Positions 37,288-58,921 of a DNA stretch of 64,000 nucleotides are shown here, piece after piece. Numbering within the stretch: position 1 is the stretch's first letter; each line of letters opens with the position of its first letter. This DNA comes from Methylacidiphilum kamchatkense Kam1 (GTDB taxonomy: Bacteria; Verrucomicrobiota; Verrucomicrobiia; Methylacidiphilales; Methylacidiphilaceae): positions 1,240,001-1,304,000 of the forward strand of contig NZ_CP037899.1 in NCBI RefSeq assembly GCF_007475525.1, given 5' to 3'. A program made the position numbers and the translations under genes. The notes beneath the pieces are model-generated. The model was given only the letters and a program-made list of their open reading frames with translations, ran no database searches and was not told the origin of the DNA.

Positions 37288-37308
37288 GTTTTCATAATGC
37301 ATGAAAAC
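37288..37308. promoter_or_regulatory. Palindrome over the repressor start codon
   Basis: GTTTTCAT-AATGC-ATGAAAAC is a perfect 8-bp inverted repeat with a 5-bp centre; its right arm contains the ATG of the HTH gene. Protein binding here would block initiation of its own gene, which suggests autoregulation. Confidence 0.55.
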
Positions 37309-37666
37309 ATACAAGAATCATGATCCAAATAGGGGAAAGAGAATCAAAGAAGCATTAAGTGCTCGATTATGTAATAAACAGCTCGCTTTAGCTAAAGAAC
37401 TAGGAATACACGAATGCACCATATGTCGATGGCAACAGGGAAAAAGTATTTCTTTAAAACATGCTGCACTGTTATGCGAAAAATTAGATATTTCTATGGA
37501 TTGGTTAATACTTGGCAGAGGAGAAATGAATTTTCACCACAATGGCAAGAACGGTTATAGCTTCCAGAAGATTGACTTAAAGGAGGTAGAGGAGTTTCGC
37601 AAATTACCAGAAGACATCTATCAAGCTTTGATGAGCCTGTTAAAAGAAATATCAAAAAGACTATAA
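37301..37666 (+). CDS. Phage-type HTH regulator (CI-like)
   Basis: A 121-residue protein with a Cro/CI helix-turn-helix near residues 20-65: LAKELGIHECTICRWQQGKSISLKHAALLCEKLDISMDWLI matches the CI-repressor HTH family, including the SxxWLxxGxG ending. No peptidase domain. The gene stands alone 250 bases after the unknown gene at 36365 on the same strand, and a palindrome covers its start codon. It may repress itself and the 36365 gene. Confidence 0.82.
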   Translation: MKTYKNHDPNRGKRIKEALSARLCNKQLALAKELGIHECTICRWQQGKSISLKHAALLCEKLDISMDWLILGRGEMNFHHNGKNGYSFQKIDLKEVEEFRKLPEDIYQALMSLLKEISKRL

Positions 37667-38204: not shown

Positions 38205-39579
38205 ATGCCAATCTGGCTGACCAAAGACTTAAGAAAAACCCTTGGAGAAGAAGTCAAACAGTGCGACTCCTTAAGTCTTCTTTTGGATAAATTTCCTTTT
38301 TTGGATTTTAAAATTAAGGAATATCGGCTTTTTTCTTTAGCTCGAGTCGTTTAGTGGAAATTCCTCCATAAAAGTACAAAGCCTGATTCAATCACTAGAA
38401 AAGGAAAAAAAAAAAACATCTATTGAACCAGAACCATAAGGAAAAATAGCGAAAAAATAGCGGATATAGAGAATAAATTATAAATACTCAAGTCCTTTCC
38501 TGAAAGCCCAATTAATTGTCACTATCAAAAACTATTCTCCTGGTTCCAAAGTTTTTTTTCTAATGCTGACAATAATTTTCTAAATAACAATGTTCTTTTC
38601 GGTCAACTAAGATCTCGATTAATGGTTAATATGGCCTGGGGAGTTTTAGAAAATGCCGGGTTATGCTTGGACCGATTCGGAATCCCTTATATCCCTAGTA
38701 GCGCAGTCAATGGGGGTGCGCAAAAAGAATGGCAATACAGAATCTTCTTAACAGCAAAGATAAGGAGAAGAAAAAAGAGCTGCTTCTTCAGATTGAAAAA
38801 TCTTTGGATGGTCTAGTGAAGATTGGAAGGAAGAAAATTCGGATTTAGCTTTTGGTAGTAATAGCCAATGGATTGATATAAGAGAGGAAGCTGCTCATAT
38901 CTTATTAATCAAATTAATCATCCTAAAAAAAGAACGACTGTAGGAAAACTTAAATAATTTTAAAGGTGTTGTTTCTTTTCTACCCGCTTATCCTTTCGAT
39001 CTATCTTTGCTCAAAGTGGACAAAGCAGAAATCAAAATTAATATCGAATTGGATGTGATTTGCTGTCACCATGAGAATTACTATAAAGGGCAAATAGATA
39101 ATGCTACCGATGACGAAGCTCCAAACCCAGTGTTTTTCCCAGCTATTGCTCCAGGACTGTATTTTGCTTTCGTTCTTCTTCCAATTGAACATAGAAGAGT
39201 AATTGAAGAGGGAGCAGATCTTTTATCGACGGCAAAATTATGGCTTGCAGAAAGATTGCAATGCTTTGACATTGGAGCAAAAACAGCCGCCGATTACGGA
39301 AAATTTGATTGCAACGAGAATGATCGGATCAAACAGTCAATACTACAAGTCAATAAAAGAAAAAGCATAAAGCCTGATCCTAAATGGCTTGACAAACTTT
39401 CTAAGCTGAAAGAAGACGAACATAGAGGAAAAATCAAACCATTTTCATATGAAGAGGAAGGGGTTTTAAATGATGAAAAACTAAAAGATGAGATTTGTCA
39501 AATATCTCTTTTTAAGTATCTTATAGAAATTAATCCCGATTTATATCAAAAAGAAAAAACAACAAAAATTCTAAAGTGA
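38205..39579 (+). pseudogene. Decayed second copy of cmr6
   Basis: Pieces of a Cmr6 protein in shifted frames: a start MPIWLTKDLRKTLGEEVKQ at 38205, then GQLRSRLMVNMAWGVLENAG and FGIPYIPSSAVNGGAQ at about 38600-38730. A long intact stretch from 39007 contains VICCHHENYY, NPVFFPAIAPG and FDIGAKTAADYG. These match the intact Cmr6 at 48956 (LRSRLMVNMAGGVLENAG, FGIPYIPGSAVKGC, IACHHQKYY, GIGAKTAAGYG), with high nucleotide similarity around 38600-38710. Several frameshifts and stops separate the pieces, so it cannot make a full protein. It is followed by a cmr1 relic in the same order as in the intact locus. Confidence 0.8.
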
Positions 39580-39619: not shown

Positions 39620-40476
39620 ATGAATAAAGAAAAGCACGAAATCACATTTATTACTCGTTGTTTTTGTGCAGGAGCCAATCAGAGTCAACCAGAATTGAGA
39701 TCTTCTTCTATTCGAGGAAAACTTAGATGGTGATTTCGGGTTCTTGGTGGAACTAAAACAGAAGAAAGAGAAGTTTTGGAGGAGTCACAAAGAAGGAGTC
39801 TTTGAGCAGTTCTTTTCTTCTTCACATAACTACTCTTCCTGAACACAAGACGCTAAAGATAGATAAAAATAACTGGCATAACTGGGGTATTTTGGTATTT
39901 TGTTTTTGTCAAAGCTTCCAATCGACAATATGCAGATATTCCTCCTGGAACCCAAGCTCAAATCGAAATTTTATGGAGAAAGAATCTTCCGAAGGATTTG
40001 TATAACAAATTTCAGAAGGCACTCGAAGCTTTTCTTCTTTTTGGTTCAATTGGTTTTCGGTCAACGCGTTGCGCCGGTTCCTTTCATCCAGAAAGTTTAC
40101 CACAAAGCAAAAAAACCACCCCAAAATCTTAAAGAGTATCAAGAGATTTTGAATACATATGATGGTTTTTGTTGGGGATTTTGTCACAAACCATTTCCAA
40201 CGTGCAAAAGTCTTTTAGAAACGGCTCAAACAATCTTAAAAGATAAATTTAGAAAAAAATATTCTGCAAAAAAAAAATGGTTCTCCCCTAGGTTCAGCTA
40301 ATCCTAGACAAGCAAGCGCTGTTTATTTTAGACCTATCCAAATTAAGGATCAGTATCATCTTTTACTATTCGAAGCACCACACGATAAGATTCTGAATGA
40401 AAAAATAAACAAGAAATATCCAAAACCTATATTAAAAGAATATATTGACGAAAAAAATAGTATCTTTTGTCAATGA
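39620..40476 (+). pseudogene. Decayed second copy of cmr1
   Basis: Starts MNKEKHEITFITRCFCAGA with SSIRGKLRW then TGA, exactly where Cmr1 has the IRGxLRWWFR motif, so a Trp codon became a stop. Later pieces in other frames read RQYADIPPGTQAQIEILW, FGSIGFRSTRCAGSFHPE (the Cmr1 glycine-rich loop) and ASAVYFRPIQIKDQYHLLL near 40300-40370. The intact Cmr1 at 50361 has the same opening but is otherwise rather different, so this copy may come from another Cmr lineage. The reading frame ends at the TGA at 40474. Confidence 0.75.
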
Positions 40477-43227: not shown

Positions 43228-46203
43228 ATGAATTTCTGGCAACGCAAATTATTAGCTTTACTGCATGATCCACCGTGTAAGGCTTATAACCTTAAAGAGC
43301 ATCAAGAAATTGCTGATAGTTTAATTCAAAATGCAGAGCTTGATGTAAAAAAAGCAAAAACCTTTTTCTATAAAGTTTGTGATCACATTGCGGCAGCAGC
43401 GGATCGTTTGATTTTCCCACGTCCGTCTATATTAAAATCTCCTTTTCATGGAGACAAAGATTCTCCTTACCATCATACACTGGGAGAAGGTACACTAATA
43501 TTCAAAAATTCAATAACTCCGGAAAAAGCAGAAGAGATTATTTCTAGCAATCAGCCAGTAAACTACGATTATGAATCAGTAGAGGACCAATCTTTTGATG
43601 GCTTTGAGAAAAGAATAGGCAAGGATTGGGCCAAATTTTTTATCCATTGGCGACTTTGGAAAAAATTTGTTTCTAAAGAAGACCCTCATCTTGTCTTTTC
43701 ACCAGCCGATACTCGAATCCCTGATCATACAATCTGGACGCATTGCTCTATTACTAGTGCCCTTCAAGGTTGTACAGAGATTGAACTCGGAGAAGCTGAC
43801 TATCAGATCAAGTTTCAATTTCAACCTGCTTTTCTTCTTTTCCAACTTGGTCCAGTTCAAGAATTTATAGCTCAAGCAAGGACTACCAAAGACTTATGGA
43901 GTGGCAGCTATTTATTTTCCTTTTTGGTAGCACATGGCATCAAGGCGGTCACGGATCGTTTGGGACCTGACTCTATTATATATCCGGCCCTTTTAGACCA
44001 ACCTCTATTCGATTTTTTGCATAAAGACGAGCTTTATTGTAAAGTCAAGACTCTTAATGATAATAAGAATTTGTGGGAGGAAGAAGTAGGTAAGCTTAGC
44101 TATAATTCCCAAGTTTTAACTCCAAACCTTCCAAACCGATTTCTTGCGCTAATTCCTTATAATAAAACCGATATAATCACAAAGGCCATAGAAGAAAAAA
44201 TCAGAGAAGAGCTTAATAACATTAGTAACGCATGCATCAAGTATCTGAAAAAGAATGAAATTTATTGGGACGAAAGGATTGAAGAACGATGGAAAGAACA
44301 GCTTCAATCCTTTCTTAACTTTTCTTGGCAAGTCTATCCTTGGAAGAATATAGAAACAACAATGTGGTTGTTGAAGCAACTACCGTTTGAAGATCATTCC
44401 GCTGATAATCTTAATAAAGTTTACGATCTTTCCCGCCGTATCCCAAGAAGCGATTTAGACCCTCGCAACTACAAAAACGAGAATGGGGAGATTCAATTTG
44501 ATACTAAAAATCGTCCGATTATTGACAATCCAGGGTTTTGCTGGTCTGCACATTATGCTCTCACAGATTTTCTTCTGGCTGGAAGAAGAAATACCCGGAA
44601 TTTCTCTTTTTTTGGAGATCCAGAAAAATTGCATAGCCGCAGTGGGGTGCCCAAAGACATGTATTCGGGTAAAGAGGAATGTATTGGTGATGAAAAATGG
44701 CAAGATACTTTGTATGAGAAGCTACCCAGAAAGTTCAAGGAAAATGAAAGACTGGGAGCCATTAATATTATCAAAAGGATCTGGGATGAAGCTTATTTAA
44801 AAGAAAAACATCACCTTAGCCACGAAGGTTTTGATTCAGTACCCGATGTCGCAGCCTACTATTGGGGCAAAGAAGAGCTAGAGAAATGCACCGATAATGA
44901 TACTAAAGCTAAAATAGATTCTTTCTATGAGTTAATTCAAGAAGCTTTTAATAAAAAAGATAAAGAACAGGCAAAAAAGTTTCTTATAGAAGAAAGTCCT
45001 CGCCTCTTTTTTATTTCTGAACTGAAACGCGAAATCAAAGAAAACAAAACGAAAAACGAAGCTTCTTTGCATTTAGAAAAAAATCTACTTGGGTCTCTCA
45101 AAGAGATTCAAAGCCGTCTGCAGTCTGAGCCTACTCCTTACATTGCTATTTTAGCTATGGATGGGGATTCGATGGGAAAGTGGCTTAGTGGAGCTAACGC
45201 CCCGGCTTTTAAATTTCAGCTTTCCAAGGAAGCCAAAGAGTATTTCGAGAAGAATAATGATTTAAAGGAGATCTTAGATGTCAAAAGGCCTTTATTCCCA
45301 AGTTATCATATTGAATTAAGTACCGCCCTTGAAAATTTCTCTGTTTATCTTGCTCCTTACATAGTAACAGCATATTACGGACAGCTAATTTATGCAGGTG
45401 GTGATGATGTCTTAGCTATGCTTCCTGCAGAATATGCCTTAAGCTGTGCCTATGCTTTAAGAAAAGCGTTTCGAGGAGATCCTTCGCTTGTTGATGATAA
45501 ATTGTTTAAAGGAGCACTGCCTGCACCCAAAAATCAATGGGGTTTTGTTAGTTTAAATGGGGAATGGGAAGGATGGAAAAGAAAAATTAATATACCTCGA
45601 GAATACCATCTCATCACCATGGGTAAAAATGCGGATATCTCGGCTGGTATCGCCATTGGACATATTCATAGTCCTTTGCAAAACTTGGTTGAAGAGGCTA
45701 GAAAAGCTGAAAAAATCGCAAAGCTTTCTCCTGATAATAAAGGCTACGGGAAAAAAGCTTTCGTCGTGAGTCTTTTCAAACGCTCAGGAGAAATTATTCA
45801 ATGGGGATCAAAATGGGATCATCCTTCCCATACTCATTCAGAAGAAATAGATTCAGAAGAAATAGATCTTCCTTTGCAAATTCTTACCAAGCTCGAAGAG
45901 CTTTATAAAAAGAAAAAAATTTCTGGGAAGCTTCCCTATAGAATCTCTGAATTAACCTCTCCTTATTGCCTAAACAAGAAAAATGATGACCAGCTAGATG
46001 ACGACATAAAGCAAGTCGTTAAAAACGATATTTCTTTTGCCCTCGATCAACACTTTTTAACCAATAATGAAGAAGACATAAAATTGAAAGAAGATCTTTT
46101 TGATTCTCTAACTCAATACTTAGAAAACTGCAGCAGATTAAAAGATTTTCTTGGTCCACTCCATACCTTTGCATTCTTCAAAAAGAAAGGAGATGTTCTG
46201 TGA
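43228..46203 (+). CDS. cmr2: Cas10/Cmr2, type III-B large subunit
   Basis: A 991-residue Cas10 of the Cmr2 type. The N-terminus has LLALLHDPPCKAY (His13-Asp14), the HD-domain motif of Cmr2, followed by DHIAAAADR. The palm domain has AMDGDSMGKWLSG (about residues 644-656) and the cyclase motif YAGGDDVLA with GGDD at 724-727, so cyclic oligoadenylate synthesis should be possible. The segment QFQPAFLLFQLGPVQEFIAQARTT is typical of Cmr2 at the D1 domain. It is the first gene of the operon; its stop overlaps the cmr3 GTG start. The 190 bases upstream are AT-rich and should carry the promoter. Confidence 0.93.
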   Translation: MNFWQRKLLALLHDPPCKAYNLKEHQEIADSLIQNAELDVKKAKTFFYKVCDHIAAAADRLIFPRPSILKSPFHGDKDSPYHHTLGEGTLIFKNSITPEKAEEIISSNQPVNYDYESVEDQSFDGFEKRIGKDWAKFFIHWRLWKKFVSKEDPHLVFSPADTRIPDHTIWTHCSITSALQGCTEIELGEADYQIKFQFQPAFLLFQLGPVQEFIAQARTTKDLWSGSYLFSFLVAHGIKAVTDRLGPDSIIYPALLDQPLFDFLHKDELYCKVKTLNDNKNLWEEEVGKLSYNSQVLTPNLPNRFLALIPYNKTDIITKAIEEKIREELNNISNACIKYLKKNEIYWDERIEERWKEQLQSFLNFSWQVYPWKNIETTMWLLKQLPFEDHSADNLNKVYDLSRRIPRSDLDPRNYKNENGEIQFDTKNRPIIDNPGFCWSAHYALTDFLLAGRRNTRNFSFFGDPEKLHSRSGVPKDMYSGKEECIGDEKWQDTLYEKLPRKFKENERLGAINIIKRIWDEAYLKEKHHLSHEGFDSVPDVAAYYWGKEELEKCTDNDTKAKIDSFYELIQEAFNKKDKEQAKKFLIEESPRLFFISELKREIKENKTKNEASLHLEKNLLGSLKEIQSRLQSEPTPYIAILAMDGDSMGKWLSGANAPAFKFQLSKEAKEYFEKNNDLKEILDVKRPLFPSYHIELSTALENFSVYLAPYIVTAYYGQLIYAGGDDVLAMLPAEYALSCAYALRKAFRGDPSLVDDKLFKGALPAPKNQWGFVSLNGEWEGWKRKINIPREYHLITMGKNADISAGIAIGHIHSPLQNLVEEARKAEKIAKLSPDNKGYGKKAFVVSLFKRSGEIIQWGSKWDHPSHTHSEEIDSEEIDLPLQILTKLEELYKKKKISGKLPYRISELTSPYCLNKKNDDQLDDDIKQVVKNDISFALDQHFLTNNEEDIKLKEDLFDSLTQYLENCSRLKDFLGPLHTFAFFKKKGDVL

Positions 46204-47537
46204 CGACTTTTGATCTTATTCCTTTTGACACCTGTTTTTTTCGGGATAACAGGCCTCTATCCGCTGGCAGCAGCTATGGCCGAGGCGCTCGTTGGCCACT
46301 ACCCATGACAATTCATTCAGCTGTGCGATCTGCTTTGCTTTCCCTTTCTGGTCTAACGCCCACATCACAAACAAATGGATTTTCTCGCCATGGTCAACCT
46401 CAAGGGAAAATTGGGACCGAGGCCTATAACTGGATTCATACTATTGGGCCTTTTCCTGTTGACTTAACAAACAACAAAGTTTATTTTCCAATTCCACTAG
46501 ACCTTTCCTTATCGCATTATCCCACAGGAAACTCATCAATTAAAAGATTCTGCTTTTTAAAACCATTCAATCCGAAATTTGAAAAATCAGATCTATTAGA
46601 AAAATCAGATCTATTAGAAAAATCAGATCTATTAGGAAAATCAGATCTACCCGCTCCCCTCCAATATCCTGTAGTTTCTCAAACTAGCCCTTCCAAAGAC
46701 AAGCTTCCAGAATGGGTTCCTTCTGGGTTCTATGCAAACTATTTAGAAAACAAAGAACCCACCTACCAACCAACTGAACCACTTTGGGACTCAGAATATA
46801 GAATTGGAATAGCCATTGATGCTGCAAGTCAGACTGTTAAAGAAAGTCAATTCTTTGCCGCAGAACATCTAAGACTTAGAGAAGGAATAGGATTGCGATT
46901 GGTTATCAATGATCCTCCTACCCACAAACCTAGAAATCAAAAGGAAGTTCCAGTGGAAACTCTAGTTGATACTACGATCAATATTGGAGGAGAAGGTCGA
47001 TTTTTTAGGATCAAGAAAGCAGAAACACTTCAGCCGCTTACAGACGAAACAATAGAGTCTACTACTCTACTGAAAACAATAGAGTCTACTACTCGACTGA
47101 AATGGGTTTTAATCAGCCCGGCAGTCTTTCGTCAAGGATGGCTTCCAGGATGGATTAATGCTCAAAAACAAGAAGAAAATGTTGCCCTACGGGTAGTGGA
47201 TAAAGAAAAAAGGCGTGAGTTCCGTAGACAGCGTAGGGACAATCCTGAGTGGAAATACAATCCTGAAGAAGATACAGCCTTACCTATCAAAGCAACTCTT
47301 GTAGCCGCTCGAATAGGAAAACCAATAGTGATTGGTGGTTGGGAAATTCTAGACAGAGGACCTCGTCCTACTTTATTGGCCGTTCCAGCAGGATCCGTTT
47401 ATTACTTTGAAACAAAAACTACAGAAGATACCAAAAACCTTTACCTTGCTCTTCATAAAAGATGTCGATCGGATTACTTGGGGGAAAAAGGCTTTGGATT
47501 TGGGCTGTGTGGCATATGGGATGATTGGAAGTTATAA
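46200..47537 (+). CDS. cmr3: Cmr3, type III-B RAMP subunit
   Basis: A 445-residue RAMP protein of the Cmr3 family, which caps the crRNA 5' tag. The N-terminus FDLIPFDTCFFRDNRPLSAGSSYGRGARWPLP matches the family's FRD-xRPF signature, and the C-terminal segment LLAVPAGSVYYFE matches the conserved GS-V-Y end. It starts at a GTG overlapping the cmr2 stop. Two internal tandem repeats (four EKSDLL-type units at 46581-46652 and two nine-residue units at 47049-47102) lie in loop regions and make it longer than many homologs. Confidence 0.9.
   Translation: MTTFDLIPFDTCFFRDNRPLSAGSSYGRGARWPLPMTIHSAVRSALLSLSGLTPTSQTNGFSRHGQPQGKIGTEAYNWIHTIGPFPVDLTNNKVYFPIPLDLSLSHYPTGNSSIKRFCFLKPFNPKFEKSDLLEKSDLLEKSDLLGKSDLPAPLQYPVVSQTSPSKDKLPEWVPSGFYANYLENKEPTYQPTEPLWDSEYRIGIAIDAASQTVKESQFFAAEHLRLREGIGLRLVINDPPTHKPRNQKEVPVETLVDTTINIGGEGRFFRIKKAETLQPLTDETIESTTLLKTIESTTRLKWVLISPAVFRQGWLPGWINAQKQEENVALRVVDKEKRREFRRQRRDNPEWKYNPEEDTALPIKATLVAARIGKPIVIGGWEILDRGPRPTLLAVPAGSVYYFETKTTEDTKNLYLALHKRCRSDYLGEKGFGFGLCGIWDDWKL
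46581..46652 (+). repeat. 18-bp tandem repeat inside cmr3
   Basis: Four in-frame units of gaaaaatcagatctatta (the last degenerate) encode EKSDLL repeated. Three are identical, so this is a recent slippage expansion and may vary in copy number. Confidence 0.85.
47049..47102 (+). repeat. 27-bp tandem duplication inside cmr3
   Basis: Two in-frame units, beginning acaatagagtctactactc, encode TIESTTLLK and TIESTTRLK. They differ by one base. It is a second recent in-frame expansion in the same gene. Confidence 0.85.
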
Positions 47538-47631
47538 GAAACAGAAAGGGAAGCATGTCCATGAATGTCATAATAAAAGCATTTTCTTGGGGGTCTTTTA
47601 TACTAAAAACTTAAAAGCAGGAGAAAAAGCA

Positions 47632-48573
47632 ATGGATGATACAGCAATCATTTATTTTTTTACTCGTACCCCATTACACATAGGATCTGGGGGATCGGTT
47701 GGAGCCATCGATCTGCCCATTATAAGAGAACGACATACGGCATTTCCAATTATTCCTGGCAGTGCGATAAAAGGAGTCTTCGCTGATGAATGGGTCGAAC
47801 CGAAAGTAAAGAAAGTAAATAGTAATGAGGAAAAGGAATATATAAGAAACGAAGAAGGAAAAACTCTTTTCGGAACAGGGGCAGACGAAGAGGCAAAGGG
47901 AGGGGTTCTTCAATTTTCAGAGGCAAAGCTACTCTTTTTCCCAATTCGATCTCCTAAGGGCTGTTTTGGTTGGATAACCTGTCCGCTGATTTTAAACCGT
48001 TATGCCCGAGATACTGGTCTTAATTCCCCTTTTGACCACCCTTCTTTATCTGATAATCAAGCTTTGTTCAAAAAAGATGGTTTATTGGCAATAAAAGAAG
48101 GCGAAAAAGACAAAGTAATTCTTGAGGAATATGTCTTCGAACATGCCGGTGAACTTCCATCAAATATTGACTTGCTTAATCACTTGAGAACTTTGATATC
48201 TAAGGATCCTATTTGGGAAAAAATAGAAGACCGGGTCGTTATCATAAGTGATGGAATGATGAGCTTTTTCACCCAATCAGCCTGTGAAATTGCTCAACAT
48301 GTCAAAATTGATGATAAAACAGGAACTGCTGAAAGTGGCGCCTTATTCAATCAGGAGAATGTCCCATCAGAAACCGCCTTTTATTGCATCGTCCGGAAAA
48401 GTGCATTGAGAAGCCTAGACAATCTTGAGAAGGATCCATTCGATCTTCTTCAGGAAAAAATTATTGAGAAAAAAATATTTCAATTTGGAGCAGATGCTGG
48501 GACCGGTCTTGGATATTGTACTACAGTTTTTTCAAAGTTATCTAAAAAAGGAGAAGAGAGCAATGAACAATAG
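47632..48573 (+). CDS. cmr4: Cmr4, type III-B backbone nuclease
   Basis: A 313-residue RAMP subunit. The N-terminus FFTRTPLHIGSGGSVGAIDLPIIRE carries Asp27, corresponding to the catalytic aspartate (D26 in P. furiosus Cmr4) that cuts target RNA at 6-nt steps, and TAFPIIPGSAIKGVF is the conserved RAMP motif. I choose the ATG at 47632 because it has a good Shine-Dalgarno (gcaggag) and matches the family N-terminus; the frame is open upstream to 47407 but that part overlaps cmr3 in another frame. The stop overlaps cmr5. Confidence 0.92.
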   Translation: MDDTAIIYFFTRTPLHIGSGGSVGAIDLPIIRERHTAFPIIPGSAIKGVFADEWVEPKVKKVNSNEEKEYIRNEEGKTLFGTGADEEAKGGVLQFSEAKLLFFPIRSPKGCFGWITCPLILNRYARDTGLNSPFDHPSLSDNQALFKKDGLLAIKEGEKDKVILEEYVFEHAGELPSNIDLLNHLRTLISKDPIWEKIEDRVVIISDGMMSFFTQSACEIAQHVKIDDKTGTAESGALFNQENVPSETAFYCIVRKSALRSLDNLEKDPFDLLQEKIIEKKIFQFGADAGTGLGYCTTVFSKLSKKGEESNEQ

Positions 48574-48925
48574 TTCAAACCTCGATCTGTTTCGTGCTAC
48601 ACATGCTTTGGAAAAAGCAAAATCTCTTAGAAAAGAAAGCGTTAATCGGCTGCCTGGACTTATTATAGCCAATGGATTGTTGGCTACACTTGCTTTTGTT
48701 TCTGAAGAGAAGGACGAAAGAGAACCTCTTCGCAACGCAATGGATGCAGTAGCTCATTACCTTCTCAAAAGAAAAATTATCACTGCCAAGGATAATAATA
48801 AATCCTTAGCCGAACAAATGCTGGAAGATCTTACTAAAAGCCCATCTTCAAAACTCCAACAGGCCACTTATGAAACTCTTAAATACCTTTCTTATCTTAA
48901 ACGCTTTGCCAAGAAAAAAATCTGA
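48563..48925 (+). CDS. cmr5: Cmr5, type III-B small subunit
   Basis: A 120-residue helical small subunit that lines the crRNA-target duplex. It shows ATHALEKAKSLRKESVNRLPGLIIANGLLATLAFV, typical of Cmr5 (Cas11), and YETLKYLSYLKRFAKKK at the C-terminus. The ATG at 48563 overlaps the cmr4 stop by 11 nt with a Shine-Dalgarno aaggagaag. The open frame extends upstream to 48425 within cmr4, but the family N-terminus supports 48563. Confidence 0.9.
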   Translation: MNNSSNLDLFRATHALEKAKSLRKESVNRLPGLIIANGLLATLAFVSEEKDEREPLRNAMDAVAHYLLKRKIITAKDNNKSLAEQMLEDLTKSPSSKLQQATYETLKYLSYLKRFAKKKI

Positions 48926-48955: not shown

Positions 48956-50071
48956 ATGAATACTCAGTTGTTACTTATTGAAGAAGTAAAAAATGCCCTT
49001 TCAACTGAAATAGAATCTCGCTCTCTTTTCCTCGAGAAATACTTCAATCCAAAACTAACAAAAGACGATCGCAAACGCCAATTTATTAAAGCATTTAAGA
49101 TTAAAAATAATCAATTGATGGAAAAGAAACTCTTTTCTTGGTGGGAATTTTGTAATCAATTGCCACAAGTTAGTCTTATTTATGCCCAACTAAGATCCCG
49201 ATTAATGGTCAATATGGCTGGAGGAGTTTTAGAAAATGCTGGATTATGCTTAGACCGATTTGGAATCCCATATATTCCCGGTAGCGCCGTCAAGGGATGT
49301 GCACGAAGAATGGCAATAGAAAAGCTTCTAGAAGCTACTGATGATGAAAAACCCACGCTTCTAAGTGAAATTGCACTTGTCTTTGGATGGACTTCTTCTG
49401 ATTGGGAAGAAAAACATAAAGATTCATCCGATTTTTATTATGGATGTCACTCCCAACTCTCTCTTGTAAGAAAGGCTGCAGAGATTTTATTGGAAACTTT
49501 CTCTATCCCGACTAGAAATTCTGATACCTTAGAACAACTTCTTGAAAACATTCCCAATTATGCAGGAACTGTCCGCTTTCTAGCCGCCTACCCTATTCCA
49601 ACTGAATTCTATCCAACAGCTGAAAAACCAAAGCAAACAGGAGACTTAGAATTAGACGTCATTGCGTGCCATCATCAAAAATACTATGCCCAAGACCAAG
49701 AATATTCTAAAGCTTGGGATACAGAAGATCCTATCCCAGTATTTTTCCCCGCTATAAGTCCATTTCATATCTTTGTTTTTTGTCTCCAATCTTCTCAAAG
49801 GGCTAGTGAAAAAGCAAAAAAATTAGCTGAAAGCTGGCTTCAAGAGGGTTTGGAAACTTTAGGAATTGGAGCCAAAACGGCTGCCGGCTATGGGTGGTAT
49901 CAAATCTGTACAAGCCAAGTAGAAAAGAAAATTCAAGAAAAGAAAGAAGAAGAAAAACAAAAAGAGGCAGCAAAAAGAGAAGAAGAAGAAAAGAAAAAAG
50001 AGAAGAAGAAAAGAAAAAAAGAGAAGAAGAAAAGAAAAAAAGAGAAGAAGAAAAGAAAAAAGCAGAACTAA
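48956..50071 (+). CDS. cmr6: Cmr6, type III-B RAMP subunit, with frameshifted C-terminal extension
   Basis: A 371-residue protein. The RAMP core contains LRSRLMVNMAGGVLENAG, FGIPYIPGSAVKGCARRMA, VIACHHQKYY and the C-terminal LGIGAKTAAGYGWY, all diagnostic of Cmr6. The core ends near residue 316; the rest is a Lys/Glu low-complexity tail ending in KKRKKQN. Adding one A to the run at 49994-49999 would shift the tail into REEEKKK repeats and then ELKEIEELTKGMSPEEKEAF and a further ~90 residues to a stop at 50362-50364, which overlaps the cmr1 ATG (ATGA). So the native protein probably has a roughly 110-residue charged extension and is truncated here by one missing base. Confidence 0.9.
   Translation: MNTQLLLIEEVKNALSTEIESRSLFLEKYFNPKLTKDDRKRQFIKAFKIKNNQLMEKKLFSWWEFCNQLPQVSLIYAQLRSRLMVNMAGGVLENAGLCLDRFGIPYIPGSAVKGCARRMAIEKLLEATDDEKPTLLSEIALVFGWTSSDWEEKHKDSSDFYYGCHSQLSLVRKAAEILLETFSIPTRNSDTLEQLLENIPNYAGTVRFLAAYPIPTEFYPTAEKPKQTGDLELDVIACHHQKYYAQDQEYSKAWDTEDPIPVFFPAISPFHIFVFCLQSSQRASEKAKKLAESWLQEGLETLGIGAKTAAGYGWYQICTSQVEKKIQEKKEEEKQKEAAKREEEEKKKEKKKRKKEKKKRKKEKKKRKKQN
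49981..50061 (+). repeat. 20/21-bp A/G-rich tandem repeat in the cmr6 tail
   Basis: Four units of an AGAAGAAGAAAAG-A(n)-G pattern. The second and third have seven A's (21 bp, in frame); the first has six (20 bp), which puts everything after it in another frame. This is a natural slippage site. Confidence 0.8.
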
Positions 50072-50360: not shown

Positions 50361-51401
50361 ATGATTTTGAACAAATACAAAATTGAATTCATTACTCCAT
50401 GCATTTGTGGGGGTGCAGAACCAGAAGAAAGAGCGGAAATAAGAATCCCATCTATTCGTGGCCAATTGCGTTGGTGGTTTAGAGTACTTGGAGGCTTTAA
50501 AATCCTTTCAGAAGATGTACGCGAACAGGAAGATATGATTTTTGGATCGACTACAAACAATCCTTCAGCTTCAAAGTTAATCCTTAGGTTATCATCACCC
50601 TCAAACATACTTTCAGAAAAAATGAATGGAACCGATCTTGGAGCGGATCGTGCTTATCGTGCTTCTGTTCCTTTTCCTCTAAGACAACAAAAAGATAGAC
50701 GAGTTATCAAAAAAAATACAGCATTTGAATTATCTATTTTCTGGAAAGGAAGAAAAGAGCCATTCCAAAAAACAGATGAACTAAAGGAAAGTATCGATGT
50801 ATTAATTTCTATTTGGGTGTCTCTAGGTGGTCTTGGATTTATGTCCAGAAAAGGATTTGGAGCTTTGACCTTTAGTAGAGAAAGTTATCCACCCCACGAC
50901 CTAAAAACAGCGCTTAGTTTTTTTAAACACCCAGAAAACATTCTAATTAAAAAGCTTAATAATGATACTTTTACTGATTCTAATTCCGCTCGTGTGTCTT
51001 TATGGAAGTGGTATAAAACGACAAGGGCATATAAATATAAGGAATACATTAAAAATGACCGCGAAGCTGGACTGGCTATTGCCAATAATAACAAATGGGA
51101 GGGGAAAGTGTATCGACCTGCCTTGGGTCTTCCAATCATTCAACATTTCTCTAAAAGAAACATTAAAAATAATATTAATTGGTACCCTAGACCAGACTCT
51201 AAAGGTCGATTTGCCTCTCCAATCCTTTTACGTCCTTTCAAATCAATAAAAGGATATCTTGCACTGGTTATTTTCATCGAAGCGCTAAAATGGCCAGAAA
51301 ACAAAAAAGTCTATATAAACTCTATAGGAACAGAAGTGTCTCTTGATCTTTATAACAAAATAAAAAATGACAGTCAATTATCTGAGTTTAACTTCTTATG
51401 A
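50361..51401 (+). CDS. cmr1: Cmr1, type III-B RAMP subunit
   Basis: A 346-residue RAMP. It opens YKIEFITPCICGGAEPEERAEIRIPSIRGQLRWWFRVLGG, the family signature of Cmr1, and has the glycine-rich loop LGGLGFMSRKGFGAL. It binds the 3' part of the target RNA at the end of the complex. The ATG overlaps the stop of the extended cmr6 frame by 4 nt. It follows cmr6 in both the intact locus and the decayed copy at 38-40 kb. Confidence 0.92.
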   Translation: MILNKYKIEFITPCICGGAEPEERAEIRIPSIRGQLRWWFRVLGGFKILSEDVREQEDMIFGSTTNNPSASKLILRLSSPSNILSEKMNGTDLGADRAYRASVPFPLRQQKDRRVIKKNTAFELSIFWKGRKEPFQKTDELKESIDVLISIWVSLGGLGFMSRKGFGALTFSRESYPPHDLKTALSFFKHPENILIKKLNNDTFTDSNSARVSLWKWYKTTRAYKYKEYIKNDREAGLAIANNNKWEGKVYRPALGLPIIQHFSKRNIKNNINWYPRPDSKGRFASPILLRPFKSIKGYLALVIFIEALKWPENKKVYINSIGTEVSLDLYNKIKNDSQLSEFNFL

Positions 51402-51690
51402 AGCATCAACTTTCCTTTCTCGGGAATGGTAAGTATAAATCGACACAATATTGCTTTCCTAACAATTAAACATATGAAACAAAATTCCAGTAGCATTAGC
51501 TTCTTATATTAAGCCTGATACTATTAACATGGCCCTTACTGAAGATATTGAAAAAGGGGATAACTGGAATGAGCTCCAAAAAGAATTTTCTGACAAAAAT
51601 CTTTCTTATGAAATCATTAAAATTCCAACTGGGAAAGAAGAAAATGAACTTTGGAAAATTTTTGAATCAATCACAGAAAAGATTCCACAT
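51402..51690 (+). pseudogene. N-terminal remnant of a Csx2-like CARF protein
   Basis: The piece starting ATGAAGCATCAACTTTCC reads MKHQLSFLGNGKYKST, resembling the CARF start of the TM1812/Csx2 family (SFLGTGKY). After stops and a frame change it continues as MALTEDIEKGDNWNELQKE and IIKIPTGKEENELWKIFESI, matching the family's LTExA..NW..L and IPxGxxExELWxIF motifs. The remnant then runs into the NE0113-type ORF. The expected DITHGFR motif is absent. So an effector of the CARF-HEPN class seems to have been lost here. Confidence 0.55.
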
Positions 51691-52932
51691 TGCTCAAGTT
51701 ATTTCCACTTCTCCCAATCTGATTATCAAGCTTGGAAAATTACAAAGAGGCATCAAACCAGAGACGGTAGTTTTGCCTCAACTTCTGGTGGAAAAAATCC
51801 AATCTTTGGTTTCTTAAAAATGCTCTTGAACAAAGAAAAAGAAATCATTTTGTTGGCCGTTGTTGGCACCTCTCCTGCTGTTATTCCTGAAACCATCTGG
51901 GCATTAGCTCATGAATCTCCGCCCTTATATCCTCGTTTTATTGATATAATTACAACAACTATCGGGAAAAAATCTATCGATTCCGAATTGCTCAGATCAA
52001 AATCAAATTCAAAGCCAATTTGGGAAGAATTTAGAGAATGGTTGATTACTGAAAAAGCTATAGATAAAAACTTCATCATCTTAAGGGATATTAAAATTAT
52101 TTCCTCTCCCCTTTTATCCCAAGGCAAGTGCGTAGAATTAGAAGATATTCGTTCGATTAAAGATAATGAAGAAGCAGCCGATTGTATTCTTGAAGAGGTC
52201 AGAAAAATCACAGAAAATCCAGACACCCGTCTGATCGCTTCGGTTGCAGGAGGAAGAAAAACAATGGGCATTCTTCTCTACAGCTCTGTTTCTATGCTTG
52301 GTAGAGAGGACGATAGACTAACTCACGTACTAGTCAATGAACCTTACGATGACCCACGGCTTCAACCAAAGTTTTATTTTCCGCAACAAAAAGAACAGCT
52401 TCTAAGAATGCCGTCTGGCCAAGAAGTCTATGCAAAAGATGCTAAAATTGAATTAGCTACCATTCCCTTTGTAAAATTCCGTGAGCTTTTTCCTAAAGAG
52501 CTTGGAAGATTTCCAGGTCGTTTTACTGATCTTGTCTATCAATATTCGAAAGAAATTAAAGAGCTTAACCCCCAGCTGGATTTTGATTATCAAACGGGTG
52601 AGCTTATTATAAATGAAAAGAAGATTCAGCTCCATGGCAGAGAACTGTCATTCTTTGCATTCCTTTGGGAAAGAAGAAGACAAAAGCTTCCCCCTATAGA
52701 AAGCCATAAGGAAATAAATGAGTACTTTCCTTCTTTTTTAAAAAAATGGGAAAAAGAAAATCCACAGTTAAAGCACCTTCTCAAAGAATGGAATCCTTGT
52801 CCTGACGATTATAGGAAATGTTTAAGTGTCCTTAGAAAAAAATTAAAAGACGCAGGCTTGGGAAAATACTGTCAACTATTCTTTCCAATAAGAGGAAAAG
52901 TTGGTCTTCCTTTAAAAAATGAAAAGTTTTAA
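51529..52932 (+). CDS. CARF-domain CRISPR protein, NE0113 type (possible ring nuclease), with fused remnant
   Basis: The core from about residue 98 (Met at 51820: KEIILLAVVGTSPAVIPETIWAL) matches the NE0113 (TIGR02584) family of CRISPR-associated CARF proteins. Further matches are RLIASVAGGRKTMGILLYSS, a ligand-binding loop, and a C-terminal wHTH-like segment near LHGRELSFFAFLWERRRQ. Proteins of this type bind cyclic oligoadenylate and some degrade it. The first 97 residues belong to the remains of a Csx2-like CARF protein in the same frame, so the open frame is a chimera. Translation may start at 51529 or 51820. It lies 127 nt after cmr1. Confidence 0.65.
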   Translation: MALTEDIEKGDNWNELQKEFSDKNLSYEIIKIPTGKEENELWKIFESITEKIPHCSSYFHFSQSDYQAWKITKRHQTRDGSFASTSGGKNPIFGFLKMLLNKEKEIILLAVVGTSPAVIPETIWALAHESPPLYPRFIDIITTTIGKKSIDSELLRSKSNSKPIWEEFREWLITEKAIDKNFIILRDIKIISSPLLSQGKCVELEDIRSIKDNEEAADCILEEVRKITENPDTRLIASVAGGRKTMGILLYSSVSMLGREDDRLTHVLVNEPYDDPRLQPKFYFPQQKEQLLRMPSGQEVYAKDAKIELATIPFVKFRELFPKELGRFPGRFTDLVYQYSKEIKELNPQLDFDYQTGELIINEKKIQLHGRELSFFAFLWERRRQKLPPIESHKEINEYFPSFLKKWEKENPQLKHLLKEWNPCPDDYRKCLSVLRKKLKDAGLGKYCQLFFPIRGKVGLPLKNEKF

Positions 52933-52944
52933 AGGGGAGGATAT

Positions 52945-53577
52945 ATGAGTGCCAATAAAAACATTTTTTTGTGTACTCTAGGTGTAACATGGCCTGTGGT
53001 AATGGAGGCAGCAGATTATCTATCTTCTTGGGATGAAATTCACTGTTTGACAGGAACGGGTCCCAAAATTGAAGGAAATTTTGAAAAACTTTTCTCTTAC
53101 TTCTCCAAAAAGGATTGTATTTTTGGGCTATGGCAACTCAAAAATTTTGATGAAATCAAATCTAATGAGCAAATCCAATTTTGTAATGAAACTATTTTTC
53201 GGTGGTATTTGTATCATCTGAACAAACATGGACTACCTTATGCTTGTATTGCTGGAGGTTTTAAATCGATGGGAGCTGTACTTCACAAAGCAGCTTCTAA
53301 TTTTGGTTCCAAAGGGATATTCCATATCCTTATCAGAGGAGTAGTAGAACCAAAGGATGAAGAAAGTTACGAACAAGCAAAGAAAGAAAAGAGGATTTTT
53401 TACGTAGAACTTGGAGAGGAACCTGGTTTTGAAGAACTGCGTCAGCTCGATCCTAACATATATTCCTTAGACTCTTTTATACAAAATATACAAAATAAAG
53501 AAAGAAATATTTACCACTATCTTCTTAACGATTCGCATAAAAAAACAGTTTATGGGAAGAATGTAAAAAGACCTTAG
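52945..53577 (+). pseudogene. Cad1 CARF domain (N-terminal part of a CARF-adenosine deaminase)
   Basis: A 210-residue CARF-like domain starting NIFLCTLGVTWPVVMEAADYL with the second site PYACIAGGFKSMGAVLHKAA. A strong Shine-Dalgarno (ggggagg) precedes the ATG. The frame stops at 53577. One extra A in the A7 run at 53539-53545 would continue as HKKNSLWEECKKTLENL and lead directly into the adenosine deaminase domain, the architecture of Cad1 (cOA-activated deaminase that converts ATP to ITP). As given, only the CARF half could be made. It might still bind or cleave cyclic oligoadenylate. Confidence 0.75.
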
Positions 53578-54608
53578 AAAATCTTTCATTAAAAGCAAAA
53601 GCTTGGGATAAGAAAGAAAATCTCCCTTTCTCTATCCTTGCTATTGCTAATGATAAATACATAGATTGGTTGAACCAACCTATAGACCCTAAGAAAGATA
53701 TAGATTGGTTCAAGCAACTGCCAAAGATAGATTTGCACTGTCATCTGGGAGGCTTTGCTACCCATGGCATCCTTTTAGAAGAAGTTAGAAAACAATCAAA
53801 AAACAGTTCTCAATTTTCCCCTCCTCCAGATTTTCCTGAGGGTTGACCTAGACCAAAAAAAGAAATAGGCCTAGAAGCTTACATGAAATTAGGAGATGCT
53901 AATGGATCCAAACTTCTTAAAGAGCCAGGATGCTTAGAAAAACAGTGTCAACTTCTTTACGAAGAGTTATGCAAAGATGGTGTTATCTATGCTGAAATAC
54001 GTTGTTCACCCAATAATTACGCAGATCCCACGAATAATCGATCCGCTTGGGTCATCTTGCAAGAGATAAGAGAACATTTTCAAAAGGCAATGGATAAAAA
54101 GAAAAAAGAAAATCCAGAAGCATTCTGTCAGATTAATCTTATTATTATTGCTGATAGAAAAAGCCCCAATCTTTCATCCCTAAGCCGCCATCTCTCTTTA
54201 GCTATAACCGCCAATCAACATTTTCCTTTAAAATGGGGGAATTGTGCGGTTGTGGGAGTAGATTTGGCAGGTTTCGAATCCAAAAAAACAAGGGCTGAAC
54301 TTTTTTCTTATGATTTTACCCTCATCCATCGCTGCGGCATAGCTGTCACAGCACATGCAGGAGAAAATGACGATGCCGAAGGAATATGGCAAGCTATTTT
54401 TAAACTCCATGCTAGAAGACTAGGCCATGCATTAAGTTTAAATAACTCACAAGATCTTTTAAGAACAGTTGTCGATAGACATATTGCTATTGAAATGTGC
54501 CCATATGCTAATTTTCAGATTAAAGGGTTTTCTCCGATGGAAGGGAAACCTTCATATCCCGGGAAAAATATTTTAAAGGAATTTATGCAGAGCTTCGAAG
54601 CCTTTTAG
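53577..54608 (+). pseudogene. Cad1 adenosine deaminase domain, main part, with in-frame stop
   Basis: Reads LPKIDLHCHLGGFATHGI (metal HxH), [45 protein letters not shown]-type (VTAHAGEND; catalytic His/Glu) and [11 protein letters not shown] (RLGHA), all adenosine-deaminase motifs in order. A TGA interrupts it near 53844 (after PDFPEG). It ends abruptly after [12 protein letters not shown] near 54590, before the final metal-binding (S/T)D motif and the C-terminal helices. The C-terminus reappears about 1.1 kb downstream (55665). The gene therefore is dead as sequenced. Confidence 0.8.
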
Positions 54609-55665
54609 CTTATTACCACACTGATGATTTAAGTAAATATAGCGGAAAAGAAATAGATATTAACATAGCTAAAATAGCGCTTGATTATGTTGAGTCTTAT
54701 TTCAATAAGCAAGTAGACATTGAAAAGCTAAGGGACAGGGCAATAAGAGCAGAATACCTAGACATAAACGAGCTTTACTGCTCTTTCATAGAAGAGAATA
54801 TTATTGCAAATAGAGTAGTCGCATTTAGTGCAGGTTGGTTAAAGGATAGAATCGAAGAATGCAACATGAAAGTAGAAACTTCTTATAACAAAATCATAGA
54901 TATTTTAAAATCAAGACATCCTATTTATGGAGGATTTGTAAAAGTTGCTGCTCATGGGATTGTGTGGGTGAAAAATAAGTATAAAGATGAAATAGAAAAA
55001 AGACAAAGACAATATCCTCTTTCAGAATCAAAGCAGATAGTAAAACATATTAGGAAAAGATCTTCTAATACAAGAACTTTAAAATCCGTGTTTATGGAAA
55101 ATCCCACTGAATCGTTCACAATAGATAAGCTTATGCAGCTTACTGGGAAGAATAGGCATTCCATAAATACAGAACTTTATCGACTGAAAAATCATCTAGA
55201 GAAAGTTGGAAGAGGAGTTTACAGGTGGAAGAACTAAAGATTAGTGACAAACAATACATGAACTTATGGCTAGCGGCAGTAATTGCCATTAGCCAGTTTG
55301 AGTGTGAGTTTGATAAGGAAGGGAATGTAGTGAGCGAAGACGATCCTGATGACCCAGGAGGACTAACGAAATATGGGATAGACCAGAGAAGTCATCCCGA
55401 TGTGGATATTAAGAACCTAACCTTTACCTGCGCAGTAAAGATATGTGTGGATGAGTTTTATAGGTATAATCTTCATAAGCTGCCTTTTAAGCTTTGTTTA
55501 TTCCTTGCAATCATGGGGATGAATGTAGGTTATGAAACTGCCTATTAAATTCCTACAGAAAGCATCTGGAGTAGTGGAGGATGGAATAATAGGAGAGATG
55601 ACTTTGAAATTCTGTTATAAAGTGAATTTATTTAGGCTGCTTAGCTTATTTGAAGCGCATTATAA
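54595..55665 (+). mobile_element. Phage-like insertion inside cad1
   Basis: About 1.07 kb separate the deaminase core from its C-terminal piece. The insert carries two overlapping genes on the plus strand, one unknown with a C-terminal helix-turn-helix-like end and one GH108 muramidase. I see no transposase, no clear terminal inverted repeats and no obvious target duplication; junction positions are accurate only to about 10-20 bases. Some 25 residues of the deaminase, including the (S/T)D metal motif, are missing, so the event included or was followed by a small deletion. Confidence 0.6.
54866..55237 (+). CDS. Unknown protein of the insertion, HTH-like C-terminus
   Basis: A 123-residue protein from the ATG at 54866; the same frame is open upstream to about 54560 (AYYHTDDLSKYSGKEID, DYVESYFNKQVDIEKLRDRAI), so the real protein may be up to about 90 residues longer. 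The C-terminal SFTIDKLMQLTGKNRHSINTELYRLKN looks like a winged helix-turn-helix, followed by VGRGVYRW. It is unrecognised. It overlaps the muramidase gene by 13 nt, so the two are a unit. By context it is probably phage-derived. Confidence 0.5.
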   Translation: MKVETSYNKIIDILKSRHPIYGGFVKVAAHGIVWVKNKYKDEIEKRQRQYPLSESKQIVKHIRKRSSNTRTLKSVFMENPTESFTIDKLMQLTGKNRHSINTELYRLKNHLEKVGRGVYRWKN

Positions 55666-55708
55666 TGAACTTATCATACGCTCAACTTACAAGAATGGAT
55701 ATTCTTAG
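55225..55708 (+). pseudogene. GH108 muramidase (phage endolysin-like), frameshifted
   Basis: Starts at a GTG (MEELKISDKQ). It has the family core DDPDDPGGLTKYGIDQRSHPD followed by VDIKNLTF and LPFKLCLFLAIMGMNVGYETA, matching glycoside hydrolase 108/TtsA-type N-acetylmuramidases (DPNDPGGxTxxGI). The catalytic Glu of the ExGY segment is present as QFECEFD. Near 55538 a frameshift switches to IKFLQKASGVVEDGIIGEMTL, the conserved C-terminal domain. As given it is truncated. Such enzymes are phage or secretion-system lysins. Confidence 0.75.
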
Positions 55709-55820
55709 GATCATTTCTCATTCAATTACTGCTGCTTTTCTTCCTTTCGAAGATCAAACCAAACTAAAAAAAGAAGTTGAAAATAAATTACAGAGACTAA
55801 TCAATCAAAAAAGCTTGTGA
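55665..55820 (+). pseudogene. C-terminal piece of the Cad1 deaminase
   Basis: Reads MNLSYAQLTRMDILRIISHS and then ITAAFLPFEDQTKLKKEVENKLQ to a stop at 55818. The pattern LTRxDxLRxIxxSxxAAFLP fits the final helices of adenosine deaminases. It aligns with the end expected for the deaminase domain broken at about 54590, so this is its severed C-terminus beyond the insertion. It overlaps the end of the muramidase frame. Confidence 0.65.
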
Positions 55821-55909
55821 ATTAAATTAATGTTGACGTCAATCCATGTCTTTTCTTTTTCGAATGAAAAACATTTTTTTTATAATCCTTAAAAAAATAA
55901 TAATTGATT

Positions 55910-56917
55910 ATGCCTTCTGCCTATTTACTTCAAACTTATACCAAAGTTTCTCTCTATTCGGAAAGGCTCCAAGTCGTCAGTCAAAATGAAGAAACTGGTT
56001 CAGAAGAAGTCATCAGAGAGATACCCCTAAGAGAACTGGAAAGACTGGTTCTAGATCAAACTGTCTCAATAACCACCCCTGCCCTTTGTGAACTATTGGT
56101 CCGTAATATTCCAATCTCGTTTTTGAGTTTTAATGGACAAATCTTAGGTGGATTCCTTCCTCCTTCGAATTCTCATGGGTTATGGAGACAAAAACAGTAT
56201 CAAAATAGCCTTGATCCTAAATCAATCCTAATTTTTTCAAAACAGCTAATCAAAGGCAAAATTTATAACCAAAGACGGTCTCTACAAAGGCTAAGCTTAA
56301 ATAGAAATATTAATATAGAAAATGATCTTCAATGGCTTAACCAAATCCTTTTCAATGTATCCTCAGCAGCCACTGTTGACGAAGTCAGAGGATATGAAGG
56401 AGCCTCTACAGCACGTTATTTTCAAACTTGGGCTTCATTTTTGCCAAAAGAATTTCCTTTTGAGCGAAGATCCACTCGTCCTCCTCTCAATCCTGTGAAT
56501 GCATGTATTTCATTTGGAGCGACTCTTCTTTATAATGAAATGACTGCCCTAATTCATCTTCATGGATTGGATCCAGCTTTAGGATTCCTGCATGCTCCAG
56601 AAAATGAAAGATGGTCACTTGCCTTAGATCTTATTGAACCATTCAGACCTGTAATTGTGGAAGCATTGGCATTGGATCTCTTTAGCCATAAAATCCTTAA
56701 TCATGAGCATTTCGAAAAGAAAAATGGTGGCTGTTACTTAAATGAATTGGGAAGAAGAAAGTTTCTTACTCAATATGAAACTAGACTCGAAAGACAGTTC
56801 CTATCTGAATTTGCTGGATGCCGAACAACCTTAAGAGTTCAGCTTGATGCCTCTGTTTGTTCATTCAAAGCTGCGTTGGAAAATCCAGAAAAATTTGAGC
56901 CATTTTTAATGAATTAA
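55910..56917 (+). CDS. cas1: Cas1 integrase
   Basis: A Cas1 of about 335 residues. It begins YLLQTYTKVSLYSERLQVVS; the catalytic residues are visible as Glu in VDEVRGYEGASTARYF, His in LIHLHGLDPALGFLHAP and Asp in LALDLIEPFRP. I choose the ATG at 55910; a TTG six bases earlier is possible. It is followed two bases later by cas2 and then the leader and array. Both catalytic and structural features look intact. Confidence 0.94.
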   Translation: MPSAYLLQTYTKVSLYSERLQVVSQNEETGSEEVIREIPLRELERLVLDQTVSITTPALCELLVRNIPISFLSFNGQILGGFLPPSNSHGLWRQKQYQNSLDPKSILIFSKQLIKGKIYNQRRSLQRLSLNRNINIENDLQWLNQILFNVSSAATVDEVRGYEGASTARYFQTWASFLPKEFPFERRSTRPPLNPVNACISFGATLLYNEMTALIHLHGLDPALGFLHAPENERWSLALDLIEPFRPVIVEALALDLFSHKILNHEHFEKKNGGCYLNELGRRKFLTQYETRLERQFLSEFAGCRTTLRVQLDASVCSFKAALENPEKFEPFLMN

Positions 56918-56919
56918 GT

Positions 56920-57309
56920 ATGCAAGATGATAATAAATCAAATACTGAAAAACAGAACGAAGATCCATCCTACTGGTGGTATGAAGCTTTTACCCCTTTT
57001 CCTAGCCGAAAAAATCCACCCGGAGAAAAAAAAATGCTCACTGTAATTGCATATGATATTTGCGATGATCGAAGACTACATAAGATAGCAAAAATTTGTG
57101 AAGACTATGGAGTAAGAGTGCAGTTTAGCGTATTTGAATGTTATTTAGAAGAATCAGAGCTAGAAGAACTATGGGAAAAACTTCTTTTGGAAATCGATCC
57201 TAAAGAAGACAGAATTGTATCCTACAAAATTGATGCTAAAATGGCAAAAGAAATAAAAACAGCTGGGACCATGGTATGCTCTGAAAAAGTGATCTGCTTT
57301 TTAGTATAA
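56920..57309 (+). CDS. cas2: Cas2
   Basis: The Cas2 core is LTVIAYDICDDRRLHKIAKICEDYGVRVQFSVFECYL (ferredoxin fold, catalytic-type Asp in YDI), followed by the swapped strand and KVICFLV end. From the ATG at 56920 the protein is 129 residues, with a 38-residue extension before the core. An ATG at 57034 with a Shine-Dalgarno (cccggag) would give the usual 91-residue Cas2; I list the longer one because it is continuous with cas1 (2-nt gap). Confidence 0.9.
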   Translation: MQDDNKSNTEKQNEDPSYWWYEAFTPFPSRKNPPGEKKMLTVIAYDICDDRRLHKIAKICEDYGVRVQFSVFECYLEESELEELWEKLLLEIDPKEDRIVSYKIDAKMAKEIKTAGTMVCSEKVICFLV

Positions 57310-57584: not shown

Positions 57585-58921
57585 GTCAGATTTAGAGATG
57601 AAGCCGAAAGGCAATTGAGACATTTTTCACAGAAATATTTACCGAAGCAATTTTCCTTAGTCAGATTTAGAGATGAAGCCGAAAGGCAATTGAGACCACT
57701 AATTTGGAAGTGACAAATAGATAATCTTGCCCAAGTCAGATTTAGAGATGAAGCCGAAAGGCAATTGAGACATAGTGATAGCGCTTAAGTGATTAGCAAT
57801 AGCCTGCATGGTGTCAGATTTAGAGATGAAGCCGAAAGGCAATTGAGACAATATCTTCAACAAGACCAGCTTGATCAGGTGTTTCTATCGTCAGATTTAG
57901 AGATGAAGCCGAAAGGCAATTGAGACGATATTCCAGTAACCTTGCTAAATCATGCTCTTTCTCTGGGTCAGATTTAGAGATGAAGCCGAAAGGCAATTGA
58001 GACCCCTGTCCCAAATTTTTCGATTGTTCTTATAATTTCTCCAAGTCAGATTTAGAGATGAAGCCGAAAGGCAATTGAGACCATCTAATCGTTCAGCTTC
58101 ATTACTTTTCCCAAACCCTGTCAGATTTAGAGATGAAGCCGAAAGGCAATTGAGACAGTTATCTTCATAAAACCTCCAAGGTTTAGGGTTTTTCTTGTCA
58201 GATTTAGAGATGAAGCCGAAAGGCAATTGAGACCTTGAATCGGGATATAGACCCAATTAATCGGGGGCAAGTCAGATTTAGAGATGAAGCCGAAAGGCAA
58301 TTGAGACGATATTCCAGTAACCTTGCTAAATCATGCTCTTTCTCTGGGTCAGATTTAGAGATGAAGCCGAAAGGCAATTGAGACCCCTGTCCCAAATTTT
58401 TCGATTGTTCTTATAATTTCTCCAAGTCAGATTTAGAGATGAAGCCGAAAGGCAATTGAGACCATCTAATCGTTCAGCTTCATTACTTTTCCCAAACCCT
58501 GTCAGATTTAGAGATGAAGCCGAAAGGCAATTGAGAAAACAGAAACTTTTTCCTCCATTAAATTACACAACACGAGTCAGATTTAGAGATGAAGCCGAAA
58601 GGCAATTGAGACCTTCTGATGACTTCCTCTGGATTTTTTCCAGTAACATTCCAGTCAGATTTAGAGATGAAGCCGAAAGGCAATTGAGACGAAGGGAAAG
58701 GAATTCGCTTAGATAACACAGTGGAAATTGTCAGATTTAGAGATGAAGCCGAAAGGCAATTGAGACATCCATCTACAATTAATTGCATTGTTTACGCTTA
58801 TTTTCAGTCAGATTTAGAGATGAAGCCGAAAGGCAATTGAGACCTTCCATCAATAGCAAGACTAACGATTGCATCCTTTAGTGGGTCAGATTTAGAGATG
58901 AAGCCGAAAGGCAATTGAGAC
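57585..58921 (+). CRISPR. CRISPR array, 18 repeats of 37 bp, 17 spacers (14 different)
   Basis: Repeats of 37 bp beginning GTCAGATTTAGAG, with AAGCCGAAAGGCAATTGAGAC at the 3' end, start at 57585, 57660, 57735, 57813, 57890, 57967, 58045, 58120, 58197, 58271, 58348, 58426, 58501, 58576, 58654, 58730, 58807 and 58885. All are identical except the 58501 repeat, whose last base is A instead of C. Spacers are 37-41 bp. Spacers 5, 6 and 7 recur as spacers 10, 11 and 12. Association with cmr genes, cas1 and cas2 gives type III-B. Confidence 0.98.
57927..58500 (+). repeat. Duplicated spacer block (spacers 5-7 = 10-12)
   Basis: The segment 57927-58119 (three spacers with the repeats between) is repeated at 58308-58500, an offset of 381 bases. 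Spacers 8 and 9 lie between the copies. This is best explained by unequal recombination between repeats rather than by new acquisition. Confidence 0.95.

Follow-up and report, generated by a model that had tools for sequence, protein, structure and literature searches.

A broken cad1 effector gene holding DNA of probable phage origin in the type III-B CRISPR locus of Methylacidiphilum kamchatkense Kam1

Introduction

The effectors described as Cad1 or CAAD (PDB 9C67, 9EBT and 8Z3K; PMC11645235, PMC12669630) carry a CARF domain followed by a deaminase domain with HCH, HAGE and GHA motifs, and are found in type III loci with cas10. In the intact proteins, the deaminase would turn ATP into ITP once the CARF domain has bound cyclic oligoadenylate made by Cas10. 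For TaqCad1, the motif II lysine K106 is required for cA4 binding and cleavage, cleavage damps the neighbouring Csx1, and D548 and N549, which correspond to residues of an N-[TS]-D-N motif, serve as metal and ATP ligands (PMC12669630); BabCad1 D533 corresponds, judging by the motif, to its aspartate (PMC11645235).

Here we describe a decayed member of this known effector family, rather than a new system. Methylacidiphilum kamchatkense Kam1 is a thermophilic, acidophilic, methane-consuming bacterium. The published description of its genome (CP037899, 2,202,032 bp; PacBio, 489-fold coverage) records no prophages and a seemingly functional type III CRISPR system with 17 spacers (PMC6688271). The window analysed is a stretch of 64,000 nucleotides of this genome, and all positions below are counted within it. 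We consider it very probable, taking the account as a whole, that its cad1 gene was recently inactivated and that a probable phage fragment replaced 38 of its codons by illegitimate recombination.

Results

The type III-B locus

Upstream of cad1, PADLOC identifies the type III effector complex genes cas10-cmr3-4-5-6-1, the setting expected of a Cad1 gene, and cas1, cas2 and a CRISPR array lie downstream (Table 1). Cas10 keeps its HDPP (HD) and GGDD motifs and may therefore have retained both cyclic oligoadenylate synthesis and DNA cleavage. The original prediction that cas10 stayed intact while its effector was lost holds. The single array agrees with the 17 spacers published; two of its blocks (57890-58155 and 58271-58536) form an exact 266-base duplication of three spacers, 381 bases apart, and one spacer searched in IMG/VR gave no match. 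Upstream of cas10, remnants resembling cmr6 and cmr1 (38604-39357 and 39647-39775) suggest, from their sequence, an older decayed type III-B module. A CI-repressor-like helix-turn-helix (HTH) gene at 37301-37666 (Pfam Phage_CI_repr, 1.6e-7), also upstream of the CRISPR locus, is a possible further phage trace.

Identity of the broken gene

Both the CARF and the deaminase parts of the Kam1 gene fit one PADLOC model, CARF_ADA. The CARF ORF keeps motif II as AGGFKSM, including the lysine, in the alignment, and the motif columns show the HxH, HAGE and GH motifs of the Cad1 deaminase domain, in the forms HCHLGG, HAGEND and RLGHA. Beyond the foreign DNA, the C-terminal end (QLTRMDILRIISHSITAAFLPFEDQ...INQKSL and stop) aligns at both the DNA and the protein level with QLTKMDILRIISNSIRAAFLPYKGQ... 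of an intact Cad1 from the same genus.

Of four further genomes from the genus, two carry an intact cad1 gene: G008 (633 aa) and G009 (628 aa). The G008 gene (contig L005, 12463-14364) is flanked by the CARF5 gene and cas1, just as in Kam1, and its protein has the Cad1 structures 9ebt, 9c67 and 8z3k as PDB relatives (E about 1e-160). The two loci share the gene order ending CARF5-cad1-cas1 and the same CRISPR repeat type; they differ in that cad1 is intact and free of an insert in G008 but broken in Kam1. In G009 (contig L006), cad1 follows a cmr1-like gene upstream of cas10, so that species of the genus differ in where the locus holds this gene. Family models, structural relatives and the intact same-place gene together bear out what had been read from the Kam1 DNA alone, namely a Cad1-type effector with a CARF domain, the three deaminase motifs and a deaminase C-terminus beyond an insert.

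Table 1 Features of the Kam1 type III-B locus, in window coordinates (G008 and G009, other genomes of the genus; L005, contig of G008)
Feature	Position	Strand	Basis
cas10 (cmr2), type III-B, intact	43228..46203	+	PADLOC Cas10 1.4e-99; HDPP at residue 13, GGDD at residue 724
cmr3	46200..47537	+	PADLOC Cmr3 2.3e-57
cmr4	47407..48573	+	PADLOC Cmr4 1.5e-55; ORF start upstream of likely start, homology from about residue 82
cmr5	48425..48925	+	PADLOC Cmr5 1.2e-15; listed ORF begins upstream of likely start
cmr6	48956..50071	+	PADLOC Cmr6 1.6e-29
cmr1	50361..51401	+	PADLOC Cmr1 2.5e-25
CARF5 (Cas_NE0113)	51820..52932	+	Pfam Cas_NE0113 1.6e-31; PADLOC CARF5--CARF_TM 1.4e-112; hydropathy
cad1 pseudogene, CARF domain	52945..53577	+	210-aa free-standing ORF; PADLOC CARF_ADA positions 1-192 of 605, E 3.9e-21; alignment; upstream sequence
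A7 run, reading-frame switch between CARF and deaminase parts	53538..53544	+	Comparison of frames
cad1 pseudogene, deaminase part with HCH, HAGE and GHA motifs	53550..54557	+	PADLOC CARF_ADA positions 304-530 of 605, E 4.9e-84, and Pfam A_deaminase 4.2e-24 (frame ~53550-54605); 77.8% identity to G008 Cad1
In-frame TGA	53844..53846	+	Trp in both intact same-genus genes (G008, G009)
Foreign DNA in place of 38 cad1 codons	54558..55680	+	Junction alignments with L005; alignment of 27 relatives
5'-truncated ORF within insert, 226 aa	54557..55237	+	No Pfam match; weak phage matches; no relative in 388 phylum genomes
GH108 muramidase (phage-type endolysin), N-terminal part, frameshift at end	55225..55548	+	Pfam GH108 3e-7; phrog_315 endolysin 6.4e-11
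Remainder of GH108 protein, other frame, cut at right junction	55532..55680	+	phrog_315 match resumes at its position 419
cad1 pseudogene, C-terminal end including stop codon	55681..55820	+	Alignment with G008 contig L005 from 14222
cas1, intact	55904..56917	+	PADLOC Cas1 5.4e-82; 90.4% identity to G008
cas2	56920..57309	+	Place after cas1 and sequence type
CRISPR array, 18 repeats, 17 spacers	57585..58921	+	Only copies of its repeat in genome

Three lesions

Kam1 lacks the continuous Cad1 frame of about 600-650 codons that the intact genes possess, owing to a frame change in the A7 run, an in-frame TGA and the insert; the first two had been called from the Kam1 DNA and are confirmed. In the third lesion, about 114 nt (38 codons) of cad1 are exchanged for about 1.12 kb: DNA homology to G008 ends after the PSYP codons (~54557) and restarts at CTCAACTTAC (55681), junctions that the alignments with L005 place to within a few bases. 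The 38 codons, FYDYHKK...TKLCP in G008, contain the N-[TS]-D-N active-site motif, which is found in 27 of 27 aligned relatives and is missing from the Kam1 copy with its segment. 'Split', the term first used for this effector, is right in that the gene is broken and understates the damage, part of the active site being deleted. Likewise, the insert of about 1.07 kb first described is indeed foreign DNA, but it is somewhat larger and is a replacement, not a clean insertion.

Because the N-[TS]-D-N segment is lost, no active deaminase should be obtainable from this copy, whatever happens to the frameshift or the TGA; judged by its sequence, the gene is unable to yield one, and the cA4- or cA6-dependent conversion of ATP to ITP by a hexamer is not expected of it. 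Kam1 has thus probably lost the ITP response. The frame change and the nonsense codon, which also struck the gene, would by themselves point the same way, with the proviso that slippage could bypass the frame change at the A7 run, or that a homopolymer error could account for it.

Timing of the loss

Between Kam1 and G008 the deaminase part is 77.8% identical (dN 0.140, dS 1.58), and because dS is near or beyond saturation, relative counts alone were used for timing. With changes polarised against G009, Kam1 has 19 of its own in the deaminase part and G008 has 18; in the CARF part the counts are 12 and 8, respectively. That Kam1 shows no excess of amino-acid change over G008 suggests that the inactivation is recent. 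Three lesions with no missense excess are slightly odd under neutral decay and rather many for a recent loss; one of them may be a reading error.

The surviving CARF ORF

The alternative that survives best, although we think it unlikely, is that the deaminase was lost while the CARF ORF is still made, as a lone cyclic-oligoadenylate binder or ring nuclease tuning the CARF5 protein. The ORF is complete and has a strong ribosome-binding site, GGGGAGG, ahead of its ATG; it retains the lysine equivalent to TaqCad1 K106, shows no excess of change (12 versus 8), and the CARF domain of TaqCad1 offers a precedent in damping a neighbouring Csx1 (PMC12669630). By analogy, the free CARF ORF might still bind or cleave cA4. 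However, this part is less conserved than the deaminase (60.9% against 77.8% identity to G008), about 15 C-terminal residues are out of frame, no sign of selection keeping CARF apart from the deaminase was seen, and decay of the ORF has possibly just not yet begun. That a stand-alone CARF protein was left, the effector gene having turned into a regulator of its own CRISPR locus, seems to us slightly less probable still.

CARF5 is the remaining intact CARF gene and has no transmembrane helix by hydropathy; no intact effector of the Csx1 type turned up when the genome was searched for Csx1 CARF and HEPN families. The ORF that contains CARF5 runs from 51529 to 52932, with CARF5 homology beginning near residue 101, and models of CARF2-HEPN (Csx1/Csm6-type) proteins match its first ~95 codons (51529-51819) with their N-terminal part. 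From these matches, the segment looks like a remnant of another effector, of Csx1 type, fused in frame upstream of CARF5.

The foreign DNA

The insert carries two ORFs, and the genes at both its edges are truncated. The second encodes a phage-type GH108 muramidase, so that a gene of this kind does lie inside the effector gene, as originally predicted. Its GH108 domain scores 31.3 bits in Pfam against a cut-off of 21.2, and its identity is ~38% with Vibrio phage proteins and reaches about 49% with an IMG/VR contig; elsewhere in the family, GH108 is present in one genome only (G012). Like phage GH108 endolysins (Pfam PF05838, PHROG 315), it has the GH108 domain and then the start of the C-terminal region; unlike them, it is incomplete, its frame breaking at 55548 and the protein being truncated at the right junction.

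The larger, 226-aa ORF has no start codon. It matches phrog_62 weakly (0.0056). A donor was sought among phages, plasmids, IMG/VR and 388 phylum genomes, and these searches returned nothing beyond a weak similarity to Vibrio phage, confined to the last ~60 residues of the ORF. Pfam and PDB searches returned nothing, no holin or spanin likeness and no transmembrane-like segment was found, and the predicted structure (mean pLDDT 46) is not usable. The HTH-like gene first read at this place is unsupported by any Pfam match. The supposed phage lysis cassette is not upheld either: a complete one is ruled out by a 5'-truncated, unassigned ORF, which is no recognised lysis gene, beside a frameshifted and cut GH108 gene.

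We infer a phage origin for the larger ORF mainly from the neighbouring GH108 gene, and the insert as a whole is probably of phage origin. The proposal of a phage remnant is likely to be correct, but no source phage or prophage was found. Spacers of the Kam1 array match the insert at no more than 23 of 40 bases, which is chance level.

A small mobile element or gene cassette, instead of a chance scrap, would fit a compact ~1.1 kb segment with two same-strand ORFs within a defence locus, yet we hold this to be very improbable. No transposase or integrase was found in the insert, no terminal inverted repeats, flanking direct repeats or target duplication at its ends, and no second copy in the Kam1 genome or 12 relatives of the family; target sequence was lost, not duplicated, and the genes are cut at both edges. 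An artefact of assembly or sequencing is even more improbable as the source of the insert. One of the three lesions does fall in an A7 run, where errors are frequent, but the genome is a closed single contig with deep long-read coverage (PMC6688271), the cad1 halves stand in order on the same strand around unique DNA, and cas1 comes next, as in G008. We therefore favour the reading in which a fragment of ~1.12 kb, probably from a phage, replaced 38 cad1 codons and with them the N-[TS]-D-N motif that binds metal and ATP; the fragment was probably joined through illegitimate recombination, in which target sequence was lost.

Discussion

The Kam1 gene resembles the described Cad1 and CAAD effectors in domain order, in the motif II lysine, in the HCH, HAGE and GHA motifs and in its place in a type III locus with cas10, and it departs from them in its broken frame, its nonsense codon and the replacement of the 38 codons that bear the N[TS]DN motif. 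A strain described with an apparently functional CRISPR system would therefore have lost its ATP-to-ITP effector and kept Cas10, the adaptation genes and the array, part of the damage to cad1 having been done by DNA that bears a phage-type gene. Kam1 is accordingly unsuitable as a Cad1-positive strain, and caution is warranted in using it as one. On a modest scale, the locus illustrates the loss of an effector from a type III system, and the free CARF domain left behind is open to experimental testing.
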